NCBI GenBank assembly: GCA_949316235.1
Contig: OX438748.1
Span: 32,544,836 to 32,608,835 of the forward strand
Source of the DNA: Oegoconia quadripuncta
Lineage: Eukaryota; Arthropoda; Insecta; Lepidoptera; Autostichidae
Direction of reading: 5' to 3'
Length of the DNA: 64,000 nt
How positions within the stretch are numbered: position 1 is the stretch's first letter; each line of letters begins with the position of its first letter. A program made the position numbers and the translations under genes. Below, piece after piece: positions 25,478 to 45,462 of the stretch. Under the pieces are notes generated by a model that was not told the DNA's origin, did not search any database, and saw only the letters and a list, made by a program, of their open reading frames with translations.

Positions 25478-26476
25478 TCACCCGCATGCAATCAATGCAT
25501 CTTTGCCAACGGAGTGGCAGTTTATTGATGCCCTTCTTAAAGAAATCAGCTGGACGGGAGGCAACAAATTCTTCAAAGGCATTTTGTCTCGAGTATTTTT
25601 TCCTGCCAAGAAGTTATCCAAATTCTGGAAAAAGTAGTAGTCTGTAGGCGCAAGGTCTGGTGAGTAGGGCGGATGACGGAGAGCTTCCAACCCCAGTTCT
25701 TGCAACTTGGAGACCGTCTGCTGTGCAGTATGAGGTCGCGCGTTGTCGTGCAGGAGCAGCGGAAAGGAGCGATTGACCAATGCTGGTTGGAGATGTGCCA
25801 GCTTCTCCATCATTGTGCTCAGTTCTTCACAGTACACATCTGCAGTAATGCTCATCCCGTTTGGTAAGAAGCTGTGATGAATCACACCGACGCTAGACCA
25901 CCAAACAGTGACCATCACTTTTCTAGGGGTAAGTTTTCGTTTTGGGCATTGTTTAGGTGCTGAATCAGGATCCAACCAACTTGCTGAGCGCTTGCGGTTA
26001 TCAAACAGAATCCATTTTTCATCACAGGTAACAATGCGGTTCAAAATTCCTTCATTTGTGTGTCTGTTGAGCAGTGCAAGGCACGTCTCGACGCGTACTT
26101 CGCGCTGGCGATCATTGAGTTCGTGAGGCACCCATTTGTCAAGATTTTTTACCTTGCCAATTTGACGCAAATGGACCAATATTATTTCGACGCTAACGTC
26201 GAAAGCTGCTGCTAATTCAGCCGTAGATTGTGTATCATCAGCTTCCACAATCGCCTTTAATTCGTCATTGTCGACCAAAGTCTTCGGACGACCGCGAGGT
26301 TCATTTTTCAGGTCGAAATTCCCAGAACGGAAGCGAGCAAACCAATAACAGGTGGTGCGTTGGTTTGTACGGAGCTAACCTCCGTAAACGTCGTTGATGT
26401 TGCGTGCCGCTTGTGCCGCGTTGCTGCCACGACGGTACTCATATTTCATAATTACTCGAATTTTTAACGTATCCAT
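25478..26476 (-). pseudogene. Mariner transposase, broken by an internal stop and a frameshift
   Basis: Cut-and-paste DNA transposase of the Tc1/mariner superfamily. From the ATG at about 26476 the frame reads the N-terminal helix-turn-helix part (AAQAARNINDVYG) into an in-frame TAG at about 26378-26380. It resumes with FARFRSGNFDLKNEPRGRPK and stays open for 266 codons from 26278. Catalytic motifs are visible: TCDEKWILFDN (first D), LLHDNARPHTAQ (second D) and YSPDLAPTDYYFFQNLDNF (third D), the mariner D..D34D pattern. After FLAGKN the frame slips in an A-run near 25600-25606, and the expected C terminus continues in another frame. The copy cannot make functional protein. Confidence 0.88.
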
Positions 26477-37795: not shown

Positions 37796-39481
37796 ATCGC
37801 AACAGGCAGTCAAATGAGATTTCAATTACTGTTTACCCGACTGCCCAAGGAAGGAGGGTAATGTGTTTCGAGTATATGTATCTTTGTATATCCGTTCCTT
37901 TGGCACATTCTGTAGCCTAAACGACTTTGTAACGTGACGGTATTGCGTCTCGTTGGTGATTTTAGTTAGTAATCTTTTTGTTCTTTTTCCTTTTCGTTTC
38001 TCAATATTTAAATTCAAATTTCTATTTCGAACTCAGACGGCCGAACAAAACAACGGCATTATATTTTCAACAGTTCTAAAGCTCGGACGTATGTGTCAAA
38101 CTTACTATATTGAAACCTAATTGTATTATATTTCCACTGAGTGCGCTGGAGCTATCACTTTCATAAAATCATTATCATTCGTAAAGACATTGTTTTATAA
38201 CAGTGCCTTTTTATTACAATACGATATTCAAGTGTTCCTGATTTTTATTATTTATTGCGGCCTACTCCTGAGCAATCAATTGGAAGCCTGGTTCAGGAGT
38301 AGTGCCACAACTTAACTGATTTCGAAGTGCATGGTGCCGTTAGACTCGTCTTGGCACCCGAAGTGTCATGGGATACATTATAAGGTAAAAAATCCAACAT
38401 GGCGCCCGCAAAATACTAAATATGCTGTCGGGTTTTTGGTTTTTAAATAGTAATTACTTTAAGTATATAATTTTTATATCGAAAGGTATTTGTTGAGCCA
38501 TCTTGTGAAATAAGATTTTTTTTTTATTATTATTTATTTATACCGAATTCACACAGCATATATATTAATAACATTTCTTAAAATTTTTAAAGCCAAATTT
38601 ATAGAGATTTCTAATTTACAATTTAAATATTAACCGGTACTCAGCTAACTTATAAGCTAAAAACTAGGGTCGGGTGAATCGCCTCACACCACAAACGGTT
38701 CGCACCGCGGTGTGAAACGACCCATTCAATTTTTGAAGAGCCCCTTTCGGACCGGTGGTGTGAATCGCCACCTGGAAATTTTGAATGACATTAGTTTTAA
38801 CTGTGTATCAACCCAGTATTCTATATTGTATGTGTAATAATGTATGTAGGTTAAGTGACTTGTGTCATGGTCGACGAATAAATGTATTCTATTCTATTTT
38901 ATGTTAAAAATACGGAAAAGATACATCATCCAACAACTACTTGTTGAAACATTCGACATTTGCAACAATCATCACGGGTCAATGAAATGTATTGTGTTAT
39001 AACTGTATACAGGTGACATTAGTACCAGACCACAGTTCCGTCGCTTGTTGCCGCCAATGCGCGTGCGCATCCTGCTTATCATTTGCATGGACTTTTTAAT
39101 GACACATCTGACCGTGAGAATTTTAACGTACACTGCAATCTGGCGCAATCCGTGATGTACCAATTAGTGGGTCTATAAACCTTCATTCTTGTCGTCATCG
39201 ATAGGTATTAAGGAGAAAACGCCAACGTTTAAGGATTTTTAAATTCCTACCACTCGATAATTGTTTAAGAGAATACGACATATTTCAGTTTAGTAGTTAT
39301 TACATACATAATGTCACGACCTTTTCGTTTTCGTTAGAAAAGAGTAAAAGAGATTTATGATTTCTCCTCAGTATTATAGTAATTATTTATCATAATATAA
39401 GTATTGATAATGTATATACTTGTTTATACTTCATACTATAGTGTATATTGGATAGGTTATGTGGTATATTTATTTATATAT
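37796..39481. other. No gene recognised upstream of Wnt7 exon 2
   Basis: AT-rich. A GC-richer stretch at 38680-38780 has imperfect inverted segments (GGTGAATCGCCTCACACCAC / GGTGGTGTGAATCGCCACC) suggestive of a decayed MITE. I could not find an exon with a start codon, hydrophobic signal and the phase needed to join Wnt7 exon 2. Confidence 0.45.
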
Positions 39482-39772
39482 TGTTAGCAATAAGAATCGG
39501 ATTATATTAAAAAAAAACAATTACGAAACCTAAACTGTAATAATTATTGGCAAGTAAATTAACAAATCAAATTAAATAAATGCAAACAACACATAGACAA
39601 AGCTAAAGCACTGAATCCTGGTGAACGTCCGTCGCCTCCGAGCGCTGCGAGCCCAAGTGAAGTTGCCGCTCGACGATATTCACCGTCTGGCCTGCTGCCC
39701 CTTCCAAAGTGGTACCCCCACACTCTGACGTCACACTGGCCACGCCCATTTCAGTGAAATTTTCGGTTAATA
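39482..39772 (-). repeat. 3' LTR
   Basis: 291 bp; in element sense runs from TATTAACCGAAAATTTC to TTGCTAACA. Identical to 44773-45063 as far as I can compare by eye. Confidence 0.92.
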
Positions 39773-39983
39773 CGGCCTCTCCTGACGGCGGCGCGACCTC
39801 GCCCTCATCTGCGTCAGAGTGTATCGTAGACACCATACTGTCATCGGGAGAACAACATAATTCTGAAATTACATCGTCCTCAGAACAATCATCACCACCT
39901 AAAACAACATTGTTGACATTAGAATTGTAAACATAATTATAATACGCATCAATGATGTAAATTCTTTAAATTATCAAAAAATC

Positions 39984-40368
39984 AGAGAAGAGCCCTCGGG
40001 ATTCTCTCGGCCTCACTAGCGAGCGGCCTTAACTTTCTCACATGGCAGAGGCCTCAGCATACCGAACCATAGGCAGAGCCCTCAGGGTACCTAGGTATAC
40101 AACAAGGACAGAGGCCTCAGCTTGTCCAGACTAAACTTAGGCAGAGCCCTCAGGATACCTATACAACAGGACAGAGGCCTCAGCTTGTCCAGACTAGACA
40201 TTAGGCAGAGCCCTCAGGATACCTAAGTCTTAAACGGGAACAGAGGCCTCAGCATGTTCCTACTGGCAGAGCCCTCGGGATGCCAGCGTAGAAGAGCCCT
40301 CAGGATTCTACGAAACAAACCGTACACATAGTGAAGTAGGTACCATAGCAGAGCCCTCAGGATGCTAT
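39984..40368 (-). other. Array of 11 conserved-loop RNA hairpin units
   Basis: In element sense each unit is stem, A(U/A)(C/G)CYGAGG(G/C)CUCU, complementary stem. Spans: 39984-40007, about 40043-40064, 40070-40093, 40106-40127, 40138-40161, 40169-40190, 40201-40226, 40237-40260, 40263-40286, 40287-40312 and 40345-40368. Stems differ yet pair (AGAGA/TCTCT, GGAC/GTCC, TTAGG/CCTAA, GGAAC/GTTCC, CTGGC/GCCAG, CGTAGA/TCTACG, ATAGC/GCTAT in plus-strand letters). Units 8-11 lie in the last Gag-Pol codons, unit 7 contains the stop codon and the rest are in the 3' UTR. Unit 2 is weak. Function unknown; a bound protein or an RNA packaging or dimerisation role is speculation. Confidence 0.85.
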
Positions 40369-43300
40369 ACAAGATATCGTTTGGTGCAAATGAGTGGTAC
40401 TCACTCTCGTAAAATGCAGCACAGACCTCAGGGGTCCATTCACCACGCCATAACATCATATATTCAGCTGCGGCCTGAGTGGTCTTACCATACGACCCTG
40501 TTACTAACTTTAGGTCGTAACGACCATGAGGCAGCACTTTCATCACTTTATATGGCCCACGCATACCGGAGTCTAGCTTGCCTGTAGATTGACTCCACTT
40601 GCGTACAAAGACTAGATCCTCGTTCTTAAAAACGCGCGGAGGCTTACGTTCTTTATTAATACGAGCATCTTGTTTTTCTCGATTCTTATCCAATAAATCG
40701 TATGCGCGTTGTCTGGCAAGCTCGCGTAAGGACTCGCGATTAGAGCTAGTACTTTGCAGGGCTATATCGCGCACTAAGGAGCGTATGACGGGCGTCACTG
40801 ATTCACTGCCAATTAACAAATTAAGAGGTGAATATTGTGTTGACCTTTGCTTGGTAATATTCAGGTTGAGCTGTAACTTCCATAAAATATCCGACCATTT
40901 TGCATTTCTAAAATTTACCTCAACACGGATCATGTTCAAAATCGTACGGCAATATCGCTCAACCTGCCCATTACTTTGATGCATTTCAGGTGTTATGAGG
41001 TACAATCTGCTGCCTAACCCTTCGACCCAATTTGCAAAAGCTGAACTTTCATACATTCGCCCTCGATCAGCGACAATGAGTTTAGGGGTTCCAAATAGAG
41101 AAATAGCATTTTCAAAAACTCGTTTTAGTTCACTTGTATCTTGTTTACTAATAGCGTACAAAAGACAATATTTTGTAAAAGCATCAATAATTATGACGAC
41201 AAATTTAAATCCATTTGATTCTGGAAGTGGCCCCAAAACATCACTGTGCACAGTATCAAAAGGTGTACCGGGTTTGGTCCATGACTCAATAGGCTGTAAT
41301 GGCTGCCTAGGCGACTTTTTCTGTGACAAACATACAATACAATGCCGGATATATTTTTGAACAAATTGTCTAAGTCCGGGAAACCAAAAATGCTTCAGTA
41401 TTAACTCAGCAGTCTTATCTACGCCAATGTGTTGGTGTTCGTCATGGAAAACTCGCATTAAACTAAGACGGTGACCTTTTGGGATGTAACATAACAATCG
41501 AGATTGTTCTCCAGTTTTATCGAGTTTATAGTACAACACATCGTTACGTTTAATATATCGATTTGAGTCTAATTCACCATCGCTAAGTTTTTGTAGCATA
41601 GACTGGGTCTCTTCGTCAGCGGCCTGTGCTATCTGTGCCCAGTTGTGTGGCCTCTTAACTGTACACATATTAATCGGATTACGGCTCAAATAGTCGGCGT
41701 GAGATAGCATAGCCCCCTTTCGATATTCCAACTCAAAATCATAGTCCTGTAAATAGATCCACCACCGAGCCACTCTCGGTAATAGATCTTTCTTACGTTG
41801 AGTCATTTTCAAAGCATTACAATCTGTAATTACCCTAAAGCGCATTCCAATAAGGTAATGCCTGAAATGTTGCAATGCCTTGACAACGGCCAACGTCTCC
41901 AACTCATAAGAGTGGTAACGAGATTCAGCGCCTTGAGTAACTTTGCTAAAATAAGCAACAGCTCGTCTACGGCCTTCCGAATGAGTTTGAAGCAGAACAG
42001 CACCGTAGCCTATCGACGAGGCGTCGGTATGCACCTCCGTCGGCAGAGATGGGTCGAAAATAGCGAGAGCCGGCTCGTTAGTTAAGTGACCAATTATTTC
42101 CTTACGAACTTGTTCATGTTCATCATGCCATTTAAATACGGCGCCTTTGCGAAGTAGTCGTGCCATACAAGCTGTCTTCACGGAGTATCCAGGAATATAT
42201 CGTCTGAAATACCCCGCCAAGCCTAAAAATTGTCTAACTTGCTTGACGCTGCCGGGTACCGGTGCCTTCACAAGTGCTTCCACCTTATGGGCGCTCGGAC
42301 TAACCTGACCATTACTAATTGTGCGGCCCAGGTACTCAACTTCGTCAGCAAGGAAAGTACATTTCCTGAGATTTATGGAAAAACCGGCTTCAGTTAAAAC
42401 ATGCAAAATCTCTCGCAGCGTCTGCAGGCCTTCCTCTATCGTGAGGCTGGGCAGGAGTACGTCATCTATATAAACCAATGCTCGTCCAGATTCAATAAAG
42501 GAACGCAGCGTATTTGCGATAATACGTTGGTAAACTACGGGAGCATTTGCAAGACCGTACGGCATTTTCAAAAATTCAAAGTGCCCTTCGGGCGTTACGA
42601 AGCCTGTCTTGTGAGTAGACTCGCTATCCATTCTAATTTGAAGGAAGCCAGTAGCCATATCAAGGCTTGTAAAGAACTTACTGTTTCCCAAACGATCAAT
42701 GTGATCATCTATTAACGGTAATGGATAGCGGTCTTTCACTGTAATCGCATTCAACGCCCGAAAGTCCACGCACATTCTATCACTGCCATCTTTCTTCTTT
42801 ACCAATAGTATTGGACTGGAGTAATTAGATTGTGACTCCCTAATAATTCCCTTAGCAAGAAGATCTTTAATAATGTCACGGACACGTAGTTTCTCATCGT
42901 GAGATAACTTATATGGTCTATATACAATCGGAGTGTCGCTGGTGAGTGAGATGTGCATTGATCCAGTTTTAACTGTCGTAGTAGCGGTTCCAGAAATAAA
43001 ATTTTGTGAGTAATCATCGATTAATGACAGTAAACGCTTTTTATCACTCCCCACTAAAGGTGTATTGATCATAGAATGCACATTTGACTCTATAGCAAAA
43101 ACTTTTTCTACTCGCATAAGTCGCTGTTTACCTCTAGATCGAGTATAAGTAACTCCATCTCTGTTTAATACGTCAGTACCAATTATTACCGGTATGGTCA
43201 AACAATTATGTGGCACAACGTGGAAATCGATTTCTAACGATATCTCGGGGAATTCCACTGTTAAAGTCGTTGAATAACTGAATTCTAACTCTTGACTTCC

Positions 43301-44647
43301 GATACCACGTAAAACACGAAATGAGGGTATCTGTTTACAATGAAAATGCTTCACAACGGTATCCGAAATTAGCGATATGGTAGAACCGCTATCAATTAAA
43401 ATGTTCACAGGCACACCTTGAATAACTGCAGTGGCAATATCATTATTTTTATAACTACCCTGGATTTCACGACAAAAACTGACACTTGATTTACTATGGG
43501 ATTCGGCTCGTTGCTTAGCAAAACAATTGTCAATCTTGTGACCCATTTTTTTACAAAAAGAGCACGGCTCAGATTTCTCATTGTTTGTTATGGGGGTAGT
43601 AGAAGATGATTCTACCTTCGCTCGTTTTGGACACGAATTATCGTACTGCTTGTGACCGAAACCTCCACAAGAAAAACACTTCGGTGTCGGTCTATTTTGT
43701 TCTCGTTTATATGGGTGGCTATTTTTTTGAAAAACGTTACGCGTAGTGTGTGTCTTACGAATGGGTGGCGTTTGAGCGGGTTTCACGTAAATCGAGAGAA
43801 AGTTCACTAAATCATTCGGCAATAAATTCGCGTTAGTGGCGGCCGCGCGAATCTGAGGGTCTGTTATACCACGTATGATAATTGCAGTAATTAATTCATC
43901 ACTCAGACCCGTTACTATGCGGAGACGCAACAGCGATCGTCTCGCATATTCTGCATAGCTTCTATAATTATCCGAATGCGTTTTCATTACATCAAATAAA
44001 ATATTAGCAATGTCAACCCTCCGTGGACATAAGGCCTTGAATTCGCGTTTAAAATTTGACCAACTACGATAATTAGTCACCCACTCGTTGAGCCACACAC
44101 GCGCATCTCCCTTCAAACAGTTTCCTATTCTGGCTAGGCATTCCCTGTCGTCCCACCGATGCATAACACGGATATGATCCACTTCATCAAACCACACCTC
44201 AATGTCATTTAAAGCCGGGTCAAAATTAGAAATATAAACATGGGTGGATCTTACCGGATTTATTGCGCTTATCGCGCTGACGAGCTTATCAGTTACTTCA
44301 CTAAATACCGTTTCGACGCTATACGATGGCGTCGGCAGCGGCGTCTCTGGTGGCGGCGCAGGCTGGGGCACCGCGGTGAGCAGCGAGGCAGGCGCCTGCG
44401 CAGACGCAGCTGGTGGTGGCGCAAGCGTCATCGGGGTCGGGACGTATAATTCACCAGTGGCATCGGGCGGTATCGACACATTAATTGTATTCGACCCTCC
44501 GGCACCACACTCGCTAACAACTCGCGTATTTGGGTCACGTTCTAATGCGTTCAAACGAGATAAAATTATCTGAAGCTGCTGTTGCAAATCTAAATCAGGT
44601 GTATTATCACGCTGTTTGCGTTTGCGCTTTCTACTCGATTCAGACAT
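40223..44647 (-). CDS. Gag-Pol polyprotein of the LTR retrotransposon
   Basis: 1474 residues in one open frame. Gag: basic N terminus (SRKRKRKQR), Pro-rich linker (about 75-108) and capsid-like region (about 130-290). Two zinc knuckles follow: a variant C-x2-C-x4-H-x6-C at 324-339 and a canonical C-x2-C-x4-H-x4-C at 362-375. Protease has IDSG at 418-421. Reverse transcriptase runs about 585-780 with YIDD at 727-730. RNase H has D875, E915, D942 and D985. The integrase zinc-binding part runs about 1068-1106 (H-H-C-C), and the catalytic core has D1136, D1194 and E1230 (D-x35-E). A MRGPYKV motif is at 1362-1368. No frameshift, stop or env. The last about 50 residues, with repeated ILRALL, are encoded by hairpin units. 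It would support a full retrotransposition cycle; activity is not shown. Confidence 0.95.
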   Translation of the reverse strand: MSESSRKRKRKQRDNTPDLDLQQQLQIILSRLNALERDPNTRVVSECGAGGSNTINVSIPPDATGELYVPTPMTLAPPPAASAQAPASLLTAVPQPAPPPETPLPTPSYSVETVFSEVTDKLVSAISAINPVRSTHVYISNFDPALNDIEVWFDEVDHIRVMHRWDDRECLARIGNCLKGDARVWLNEWVTNYRSWSNFKREFKALCPRRVDIANILFDVMKTHSDNYRSYAEYARRSLLRLRIVTGLSDELITAIIIRGITDPQIRAAATNANLLPNDLVNFLSIYVKPAQTPPIRKTHTTRNVFQKNSHPYKREQNRPTPKCFSCGGFGHKQYDNSCPKRAKVESSSTTPITNNEKSEPCSFCKKMGHKIDNCFAKQRAESHSKSSVSFCREIQGSYKNNDIATAVIQGVPVNILIDSGSTISLISDTVVKHFHCKQIPSFRVLRGIGSQELEFSYSTTLTVEFPEISLEIDFHVVPHNCLTIPVIIGTDVLNRDGVTYTRSRGKQRLMRVEKVFAIESNVHSMINTPLVGSDKKRLLSLIDDYSQNFISGTATTTVKTGSMHISLTSDTPIVYRPYKLSHDEKLRVRDIIKDLLAKGIIRESQSNYSSPILLVKKKDGSDRMCVDFRALNAITVKDRYPLPLIDDHIDRLGNSKFFTSLDMATGFLQIRMDSESTHKTGFVTPEGHFEFLKMPYGLANAPVVYQRIIANTLRSFIESGRALVYIDDVLLPSLTIEEGLQTLREILHVLTEAGFSINLRKCTFLADEVEYLGRTISNGQVSPSAHKVEALVKAPVPGSVKQVRQFLGLAGYFRRYIPGYSVKTACMARLLRKGAVFKWHDEHEQVRKEIIGHLTNEPALAIFDPSLPTEVHTDASSIGYGAVLLQTHSEGRRRAVAYFSKVTQGAESRYHSYELETLAVVKALQHFRHYLIGMRFRVITDCNALKMTQRKKDLLPRVARWWIYLQDYDFELEYRKGAMLSHADYLSRNPINMCTVKRPHNWAQIAQAADEETQSMLQKLSDGELDSNRYIKRNDVLYYKLDKTGEQSRLLCYIPKGHRLSLMRVFHDEHQHIGVDKTAELILKHFWFPGLRQFVQKYIRHCIVCLSQKKSPRQPLQPIESWTKPGTPFDTVHSDVLGPLPESNGFKFVVIIIDAFTKYCLLYAISKQDTSELKRVFENAISLFGTPKLIVADRGRMYESSAFANWVEGLGSRLYLITPEMHQSNGQVERYCRTILNMIRVEVNFRNAKWSDILWKLQLNLNITKQRSTQYSPLNLLIGSESVTPVIRSLVRDIALQSTSSNRESLRELARQRAYDLLDKNREKQDARINKERKPPRVFKNEDLVFVRKWSQSTGKLDSGMRGPYKVMKVLPHGRYDLKLVTGSYGKTTQAAAEYMMLWRGEWTPEVCAAFYESEYHSFAPNDILYSILRALLWYLLHYVYGLFRRILRALLRWHPEGSASRNMLRPLFPFKT

Positions 44648-44772
44648 GTCGTAACAAGTTATTCACTACCCACTAATGTAATAATGCACTGAATTTAACT
44701 AACGGAATTAATTTAAAAGTCAGAATGCCAAACCAAAAGCGGATAAAGCAATGAGAGCTATCCCACTTCTGA

Positions 44773-45063
44773 TGTTAGCAATAAGAATCGGATTATATTA
44801 AAAAAAAACAATTACGAAACCTAAACTGTAATAATTATTGGCAAGTAAATTAACAAATCAAATTAAATAAATGCAAACAACACATAGACAAAGCTAAAGC
44901 ACTGAATCCTGGTGAACGTCCGTCGCCTCCGAGCGCTGCGAGCCCAAGTGAAGTTGCCGCTCGACGATATTCACCGTCTGGCCTGCTGCCCCTTCCAAAG
45001 TGGTACCCCCACACTCTGACGTCACACTGGCCACGCCCATTTCAGTGAAATTTTCGGTTAATA
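44773..45063 (-). repeat. 5' LTR
   Basis: 291 bp, same sequence as the 3' LTR. It should carry the promoter; the start codon of Gag-Pol lies 125 bp downstream of its inner edge. Confidence 0.92.
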
Positions 45064-45462
45064 ATATATTATTTTTTATTTAAAAAAAAATAATTTTCAA
45101 TTGTTGTGTATAGAAGAAAGAAAAACATTTATTCAGCTTACAATGGGCATGTACATGAAAATTTTTTGAGAAATTAAAACTAAAACATAATAATGTAAGC
45201 TGACATAGGTTCCAGCTCAGCATAATGCTGTGGCAAGAACCATATAGTACCGAGTATATTAATTGTGTGCCACAGCGCTGATTTTCAGCTGGCACCTTCG
45301 TAGGAGGTTAGACGCTCATAGAATAATTTAAAAAAAAACAAAGAAAAATAAATAAATAATTACATACACTATTTTCTGCCCAATCTAATAAACACTATGT
45401 ATCTCTAAGGTTTGCTGGTAGAAAACTCTATCGGAGTTAAGCTCGCCTTTGTACATTTTATA

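Follow-up and report, generated by a model that had tools for sequence, protein, structure and literature searches.

Does a tandem array of short hairpins near the 3' end of an LTR retrotransposon represent a selected RNA structure and, if so, what might it do for the element? We addressed this question for a 64,000-nt stretch of Oegoconia quadripuncta DNA (hereafter, the window), in which 11 hairpin units occupy positions 39984-40368 of the minus strand, which is the element sense (Table 1).

A hairpin array in a Ty3/gypsy-type element

The element carrying the array is a Ty3/gypsy-type LTR retrotransposon, based on its LTR pair and the order of protease, reverse transcriptase, RNase H and integrase in gag-pol (Pfam RVP, 407-502; RVT_1, 621-782; RNase H, 870-974; integrase zinc-binding, 1060-1116; rve, 1135-1225). 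Its unspliced gag-pol frame runs out within the hairpin array. Read by eye, Gag contains CX2CX4HX6C and CX2CX4HX4C, compared to the CHCC signature CX2HX9CX3C described for the CsRn1 clade of Ty3/gypsy (PMC2582038), and placement in that clade was rejected solely on this mismatch. The TCAGGAGAGGCCGT stretch at the 3' LTR edge is the same, or carries 1-2 changes, across the 11 families of related elements described below; a protein ending, S-G-E-A-V, that recurs in relatives is probably this DNA translated at the LTR edge and no protein motif. Three near-identical copies of the element end (L042, L043 and L044, on G000 C7 and C2; 6 differences over ~2 kb in each pairing with the window), together with the identical LTRs of the window copy, suggest recent activity. 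Outside the element, the window also holds a 298-aa open frame (25478-26374, minus strand).

Table 1 Features of the element and its hairpin array in the window
Feature	Position	Strand	Basis or remark
5' LTR	44773..45063	-	291-nt direct repeat, 100% identical to 39482-39772
gag-pol frame, stop to stop, first ATG near 44647	40223..44662	-	Open frame and Pfam domain order
Intron, 506 nt, GTGAGT...TTTTAG, phase 1	39899..40404	-	Predicted; same predicted in 11/11 families
Hairpin unit 1, class 1	40345..40368	-	5-nt arms counted in
Hairpin unit 2, class 1	40288..40311	-	
Hairpin unit 3, class 1	40263..40286	-	CGAG
Hairpin unit 4, class 2	40237..40260	-	
Hairpin unit 5, class 1	40202..40225	-	
Hairpin unit 6, class 2	40168..40191	-	
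Hairpin unit 7, class 1	40138..40161	-	
Hairpin unit 8, class 2	40105..40128	-	
Hairpin unit 9, class 1	40070..40093	-	ACCC
Hairpin unit 10, class 2	40042..40065	-	3-bp stem
Hairpin unit 11, class 1	39984..40007	-	CGAG
Branch-point-like CTAAT	39918..39922	-	Consensus match only
Exon 2, acidic tail running into 3' LTR	39603..39898	-	Predicted; acidic tails in several NCBI models of relatives
Polypurine-tract-like TCAGGAGAGGCCGT at 3' LTR edge	39772..39785	-	Role inferred from place
3' LTR	39482..39772	-	Partner of 291-nt repeat 44773-45063

The core YGAGGSCTCT occurs 11 times in the window, always on the minus strand (39989-40359), compared to 0.10 times expected from shuffles, and none of 100 shuffles reached this number. 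Outer stems flanking the 14-nt loop measure 6, 6, 6, 5, 6, 4, 5, 4, 5, 3 and 5 bp, class 1 loops make up 7 of the 11 units and a tandem period of 64 nt occurs within the array. A covariance model of the units recovered these 11 and no others in the window up to E = 5; with filters off, the best other place in the element scored 11.9 bits (E = 0.15). Searching 39400-45200 of the window against Rfam 15 gave no matches up to E = 1.

An earlier note on this DNA had given every loop the formula A(U/A)(C/G)C..., which fits ten units, the one at 40075-40088 reading ACCC. The covariation that it described between loop positions 3 and 10 is present but amounts to a single two-class split. It had also assigned the YGAG tip to the YNMG tetraloop class. 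At the sequence level, C-[CT]GAG-G in 11/11 units does fit Y-N-M-G closed by a pair, as in YNMG hairpins such as that of enterovirus oriL (PMC6563195), and YNMG-type tips occur in some other families, making the assignment partly right; YGAG itself is restricted to the window's family. As terms, UGAG and CGAG did not appear in the two papers searched for them.

The central claim of the note, that changing stems stay paired, was borne out well above chance. Counting the first four stem pairs of the 11 units, 43/44 positions pair; the unit at 40042-40065 has only 3 bp. Among the 8 distinct stems, 31/32 positions pair, a level matched by 2 of 40,320 permutations of the 3' arms. When the 11 units (9 distinct) were aligned, 95.8% of cells were paired compared to 69.5% in shuffles, and the covariation score was 0.771 versus 0.250 in shuffles, with 0/500 shuffles as high; sliding the partner by 1-3 columns lowered the score to 0.131 or less.

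We also searched the 622.6-Mb genome for the 12-mer CCYGAGGGCTCT, finding 55 exact matches compared to 15 for a reversed control. Three array copies account for 21 of them; the remaining 34 each stand alone and have 0-3 stem pairs, so that the loop brings complementary arms only inside arrays. Thirteen of these isolated matches (L001, L011, L012, L020-L026, L032, L034 and L038) belong to one unrelated genomic repeat (agtaacTGCCTGAGGGCTCTgatcga). Of the two array copies besides the window's, one has an identical intron and the other a single changed base, at 40205, where the pair is kept as G.U.

Whole-array folding energy was ordinary compared to shuffles (z = -0.65), which counts against the explanation that we favor. 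In ensembles predicted for the intron alone, stem probability reached 0.5 in 2 of the 11 hairpins without a span limit and in 5 of the 11 with a span of 60, most local hairpins being outcompeted. The tips may contribute stability that the energy model leaves out, and co-transcriptional folding favors local hairpins; we offer both as arguments.

A predicted pol intron holding the array

Where the array lies was revealed by the protein ends of relatives, leading us to reject the reading of the array as plain untranslated 3' sequence. Protein relatives (90 in the first set and 101 overall, with named ones including Loxostege and Plutella) mostly end in ...GEWTPETCAAFFE, and in unspliced-type records the codons that come next spell a splice donor. 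Among 86 unspliced-type tails from other data sets (the 101 proteins minus 3 without the end motif and 12 NCBI-type tails), these codons fit GTRAG in 77 and GTRAGT in 64. Several gene models of relatives go on into an acidic tail instead. In the window, the corresponding intron is predicted to run from a donor at 40404 to its last base at 39899, near the gag-pol 3' end. It encloses the entire array, and its last 85 nt are unit-free and contain the CTAAT.

To compare relatives within the same genome, we used a 129-residue piece just upstream of the donor as query, giving at least 82 matches (150 of 300 candidates scored). Families F1-F11 were grouped from the 30 loci listed among these matches plus 9 near relatives (L072 and L082-L089); the near relatives came from 18 further places, of which the other 9 are distant elements and were used as controls. 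By sequence, the 30 loci form nine families, the eight besides the window's (F1) being 56-71% identical to the query, and the two added families are partial matches at 52-63%. One representative was counted per family, some counts being based on nine families and others on eleven, and all 11 families come from one genome. No DNA of relatives was found in scans of public viral contigs and prokaryote contigs.

All 11 families contain a phase-1 GT...AG intron of 384-890 nt, followed by an acidic exon that extends to, or nearly to, a TCAGGAGAGGCCGT-type LTR edge (its frame ends ~8 codons early in F6, just before TCAGGAGAGGCCGT in F5 and within it in F2). The F7 donor was taken as GTGGTG, and GTGAGT three bases further gives the same phase. 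In F8 (L061-L067), intron length varies between copies, by up to 148 gap positions compared to the representative. With GT...AG ends, a preserved frame and a conserved position in 11/11 families, the sequence has the features of a spliceosomal intron; splicing is predicted here from sequence together with gene models of unknown support.

The intron was present at 30/30 of the loci listed, and none of the nine further near relatives was intronless, although L083 has an altered donor. Because the intron is kept at all of the loci listed, the RNA that is copied back was probably unspliced, but retention would also be expected if splicing hardly ever happens.

This bears on splicing control, the main rival to a role in export or packaging. 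Hairpins, or a protein bound to them, would slow intron removal and thereby set the ratio of two Pol forms, one with a short C terminus (unspliced) and one with an acidic tail (spliced), with no part in export or packaging. Consistent with such a regulator, the array fills the intron between the GTGAGT donor and the CTAAT/TTTTAG region, both Pol forms have an open frame in the window, and exon 2, read in the phase-1 frame, is open and acidic across 11/11 families. Taken alone, however, regulation of splicing leaves the 30 intron-bearing loci unexplained unless splicing is nearly absent, and we regard it as unlikely.

An internal-loop motif in seven families

The earlier note had looked to related elements for the array and its compensated stems. 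In this genome, 7 of the 11 families share the motif; the other 4 lack it, which counts against the explanation that we favor, and have hairpin repeats of a different sequence. The shared motif consists of a variable outer stem, A-W-S-C, a tip of 4-25 nt, G-S-C-U-C-U and the pairing stem, and is found in 11 units in F1, 2 in F2, 4 in F3, 1 in F6, 5 in F7 and 1 in F9; F11 adds one unit with the variant GCCTAT, found by covariance model. Across nine representatives, the motif matched 26 times in sense introns (including 2 overlapping alternates, in F2 and F7, that were excluded from the 24-unit set), compared to 0 times in antisense, 0 downstream and 1 upstream, and 24 of the 26 intron occurrences of GSCTCY belong to such units.

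The 24 units contain 17 distinct stems, in which 67/68 stem positions pair; none of 200,000 permutations equaled this value, the best reaching 55. A model-based alignment of 23 units (21 distinct), built from four loci (F1, F2, F3 and F7) and adding one F3 unit, gave 97.6% paired cells versus 66.6% when shuffled and 55 double-change cells versus 14.4, but leans towards structure because it was fitted to the model. An earlier alignment of 21 of the 24 units was poorly aligned and left unused. The first loop pair is A-U in 20 units and G-C in one; at the inner pair, 15 units have G-C and 6 have C-G.

Transfer between families by covariance model is the strongest part of the evidence, with E-values that are rough owing to short calibrations. 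For a model built from the 11 units of the window, the next ranks were 10 intron units of F2, F3, F6 and F7 (E = 0.009-0.77), and the first match outside an intron appeared at E = 1.0. A four-family model (F1, F2, F3 and F7) placed the held-out F9 (two copies), F11 and F6 first (E = 0.0004-0.004), whereas the best of the distant Ty3-like elements had E = 2.1 and the best of 32 control loci E = 0.33. Judged from these sequences, the families have in common the asymmetric internal loop (A-W ... C-U-C-U) and its two inner pairs, a part that the first reading missed, as it did the location in a pol intron. Since the internal loop recurs while tips differ by family, the YGAG tetraloop belongs to the window's family only. 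Compensation within the array and, independently, across related families supports the proposal of a selected RNA structure.

In a tree of 16 rows of ~400 residues, motif-bearing families occurred in each of the four multi-row groups. The motif label needed 3 changes, and shuffled labels did as well in 98/500 cases, so the tree indicates a widespread motif, not a single origin. In F11 (L085), a long tandem array of short units has an end unit that still resembles ATGC...GCCTAT, and looks as if it had grown from decayed copies of the shared hairpin.

Repetition by itself could be a mutational by-product, spread by slippage or template switching in reverse transcription, with pairing maintained by copying instead of selection. 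The 64-nt period of the array, repeat periods of 38 and 46 nt in two relatives and the varying F8 array length (gaps between copies) would all fit. However, many neighboring units combine a common loop with stems and linkers that are unrelated, contrary to what recent tandem copying would give, and the same loop motif recurs in distant families with a bias to the sense strand and the intron, which makes this origin improbable.

Tightly clustered copies of a conserved core could also point to DNA, either as repeated sites for a DNA-binding protein (insulator-like) or as cruciforms. The Su(Hw) insulator of gypsy is likewise a set of tandem short sites within a Ty3/gypsy element, but there the sites act as DNA and compensated stems are not a known feature of them. 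Here, the arms vary freely yet remain complementary, motif orientation is fixed relative to transcription, and U.G pairs recur in the element sense (5/21 distinct units, one pair), which on the other strand would be A.C mismatches. We consider a DNA-level element extremely improbable.

Another possibility is that the units make loop-loop contacts, holding two genomic RNAs together or compacting one (dimer or kissing sites). Class 2 loops of the window contain the palindrome GAGGCCTC, tips in F3 and F7 contain ACGT, palindromes are used in Ty1 dimer models (PMC4974528) and the predicted ensembles prefer alternatives to the local hairpins for most units. By eye, however, class 1 loops (7/11) and the F2 and F6 tips are not palindromic, conservation between families is lowest in the tip and the motif lies far from the 5' leader; such contacts thus seem highly improbable.

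Candidate role on unspliced genomic RNA

We propose, with a probability of roughly one half, that the array is a selected multi-copy intron RNA element whose repeated docking sites would tag unspliced genomic RNA for export and/or packaging. In each unit, the outer stem would be free to vary, the asymmetric internal loop and its two inner pairs would be fixed and the tip would be specific to the family; the copies would dock one RNA-binding protein, either an export factor of the host or the Gag of the element itself. Because splicing would remove the intron with the array, only full-length genomic RNA would carry it, and the array would ensure that unspliced RNA is exported and/or packaged instead of being spliced or kept in the nucleus. 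That the site is kept while stems, linkers and tips change fits repeated protein docking on the internal loop, and the retention of the array in an intron by the copies seen points to a task on unspliced RNA. Real splicing of the intron, binding of a protein and the role in export or packaging are what we infer from sequence.

The closest parallel is the constitutive transport element (CTE) of MPMV/SRV, whose repeated internal loops are each said to take one Tap-p15 heterodimer (PMC4330393; PMC7551171). The CTE resides on unspliced retroelement RNA; the array, too, would do so and would present repeated internal loops, in that its covarying hairpins recur in a predicted intron, but predicted folding does not favor most of them as local hairpins. 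The CTE forms a single extended stem-loop (150-175 nt) containing two internal loops, whereas the array comprises up to 11 separate short hairpins with differing stems. The CTE internal-loop sequence AAGACA, as given in PMC4330393, was found in 0/24 units and 0/11 introns. Given this absence, and with NXF1/Tap-p15 binding only an analogy, the array would most likely work like a retroviral CTE but is not filed as one. More generally, retroelement RNA with splice sites needs help leaving the nucleus (PMC10309623). Rev/RRE and CERV, the export system of the Caenorhabditis elegans LTR retrotransposon Cer1 (PMC4488727), likewise provide a dedicated nuclear exit route for retroelement RNA with usable splice sites; the predicted intron here differs in being small and at the 3' end of pol.

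Titles and abstract openings searched, outside subscription journals and repeat databases, gave no account of such an array or such an intron. To our knowledge, how non-vertebrate LTR retrotransposons discriminate full-length from spliced RNA and bring it out of the nucleus is largely open. The array is a compact candidate signal for unspliced RNA, for which the 11 families of one genome serve as natural replicates, and its motif is defined well enough for pull-down or reporter tests. Because stems and tips turn over while the internal loop is kept, plain sequence searches would miss such a case.

Other hairpins in the introns of relatives

The introns of F4, F5, F8 and F10 are without the shared motif and contain repeated hairpins that differ from it in sequence, with arms that are compensated in some of them. 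Examples include the F5 loop ACTGCGGG with GACAC/GTGTC and GGACGT/ACGTTC arms and, by eye, GCTCG/CGAGC versus GCCCG/CGGGC arms in F10; F4 and F8 hairpins were judged by eye only. A broader reading, which we hold tentatively and at somewhat below even odds, is that the array represents an old lineage-wide module of lepidopteran Ty3/gypsy elements. In such a module, a retained 3' pol intron would carry tandem docking hairpins based on one ancestral internal-loop motif and serve as a splice sensor, restricting export, packaging and reverse transcription to intron-bearing RNA. Families would swap the motif for other hairpins and keep the intron, as an arms race or a change of protein partner would predict.

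C-YNMG-G tips on stems of at least 5 bp numbered 24 across the 11 introns, compared to 2.7 in shuffles, 3 in antisense introns and 3 in equal-length coding pieces, and were found mostly in F1 (10), F5 (4) and F6 (4). The F6 intron (L057) has both kinds of hairpin, an A-N-S-C/GCCUCU unit and several C-UGCG-G units with differing stems.

Local folding (span 50) in nine families gave intron z-scores of -0.4 to -4.0, compared to -1.2 to +0.8 for coding pieces and -3.9 to +0.5 for antisense introns; the antisense value was as low as or lower than the sense value in F1, F3 and F4, which also counts against the favored explanation, as the test does not by itself distinguish the strands. When we scanned generically for hairpins whose internal loop is longer on the 3' side, we found 130 versus 94.4 in shuffles, and 97 versus 94.3 for the mirror form (sums over 11 introns). 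This excess is modest, falls within the shuffle range in 9/11 introns and was not used as proof.

Finally, we considered 88 read-through protein tails. The 14-nt motif was codon-compatible at two places, both in P0007, compared to a mean of 0.047 and a maximum of 1 across 300 shuffled sets; random flanks allowed stems of these lengths in 84 and 87 of 400 trials, making P0007 suggestive only. Of 19 tails with 25 or more residues, three, P0038, P0073 (an NCBI model) and P0028, contained tandem repeats exceeding those of all 200 shuffles. In P0038 and P0073, two relatives belonging to other data sets, read-through of the same intron shows 38- and 46-nt repeats that, as deduced from protein in three frames, could form UUCG- or UCCG-tipped hairpins.
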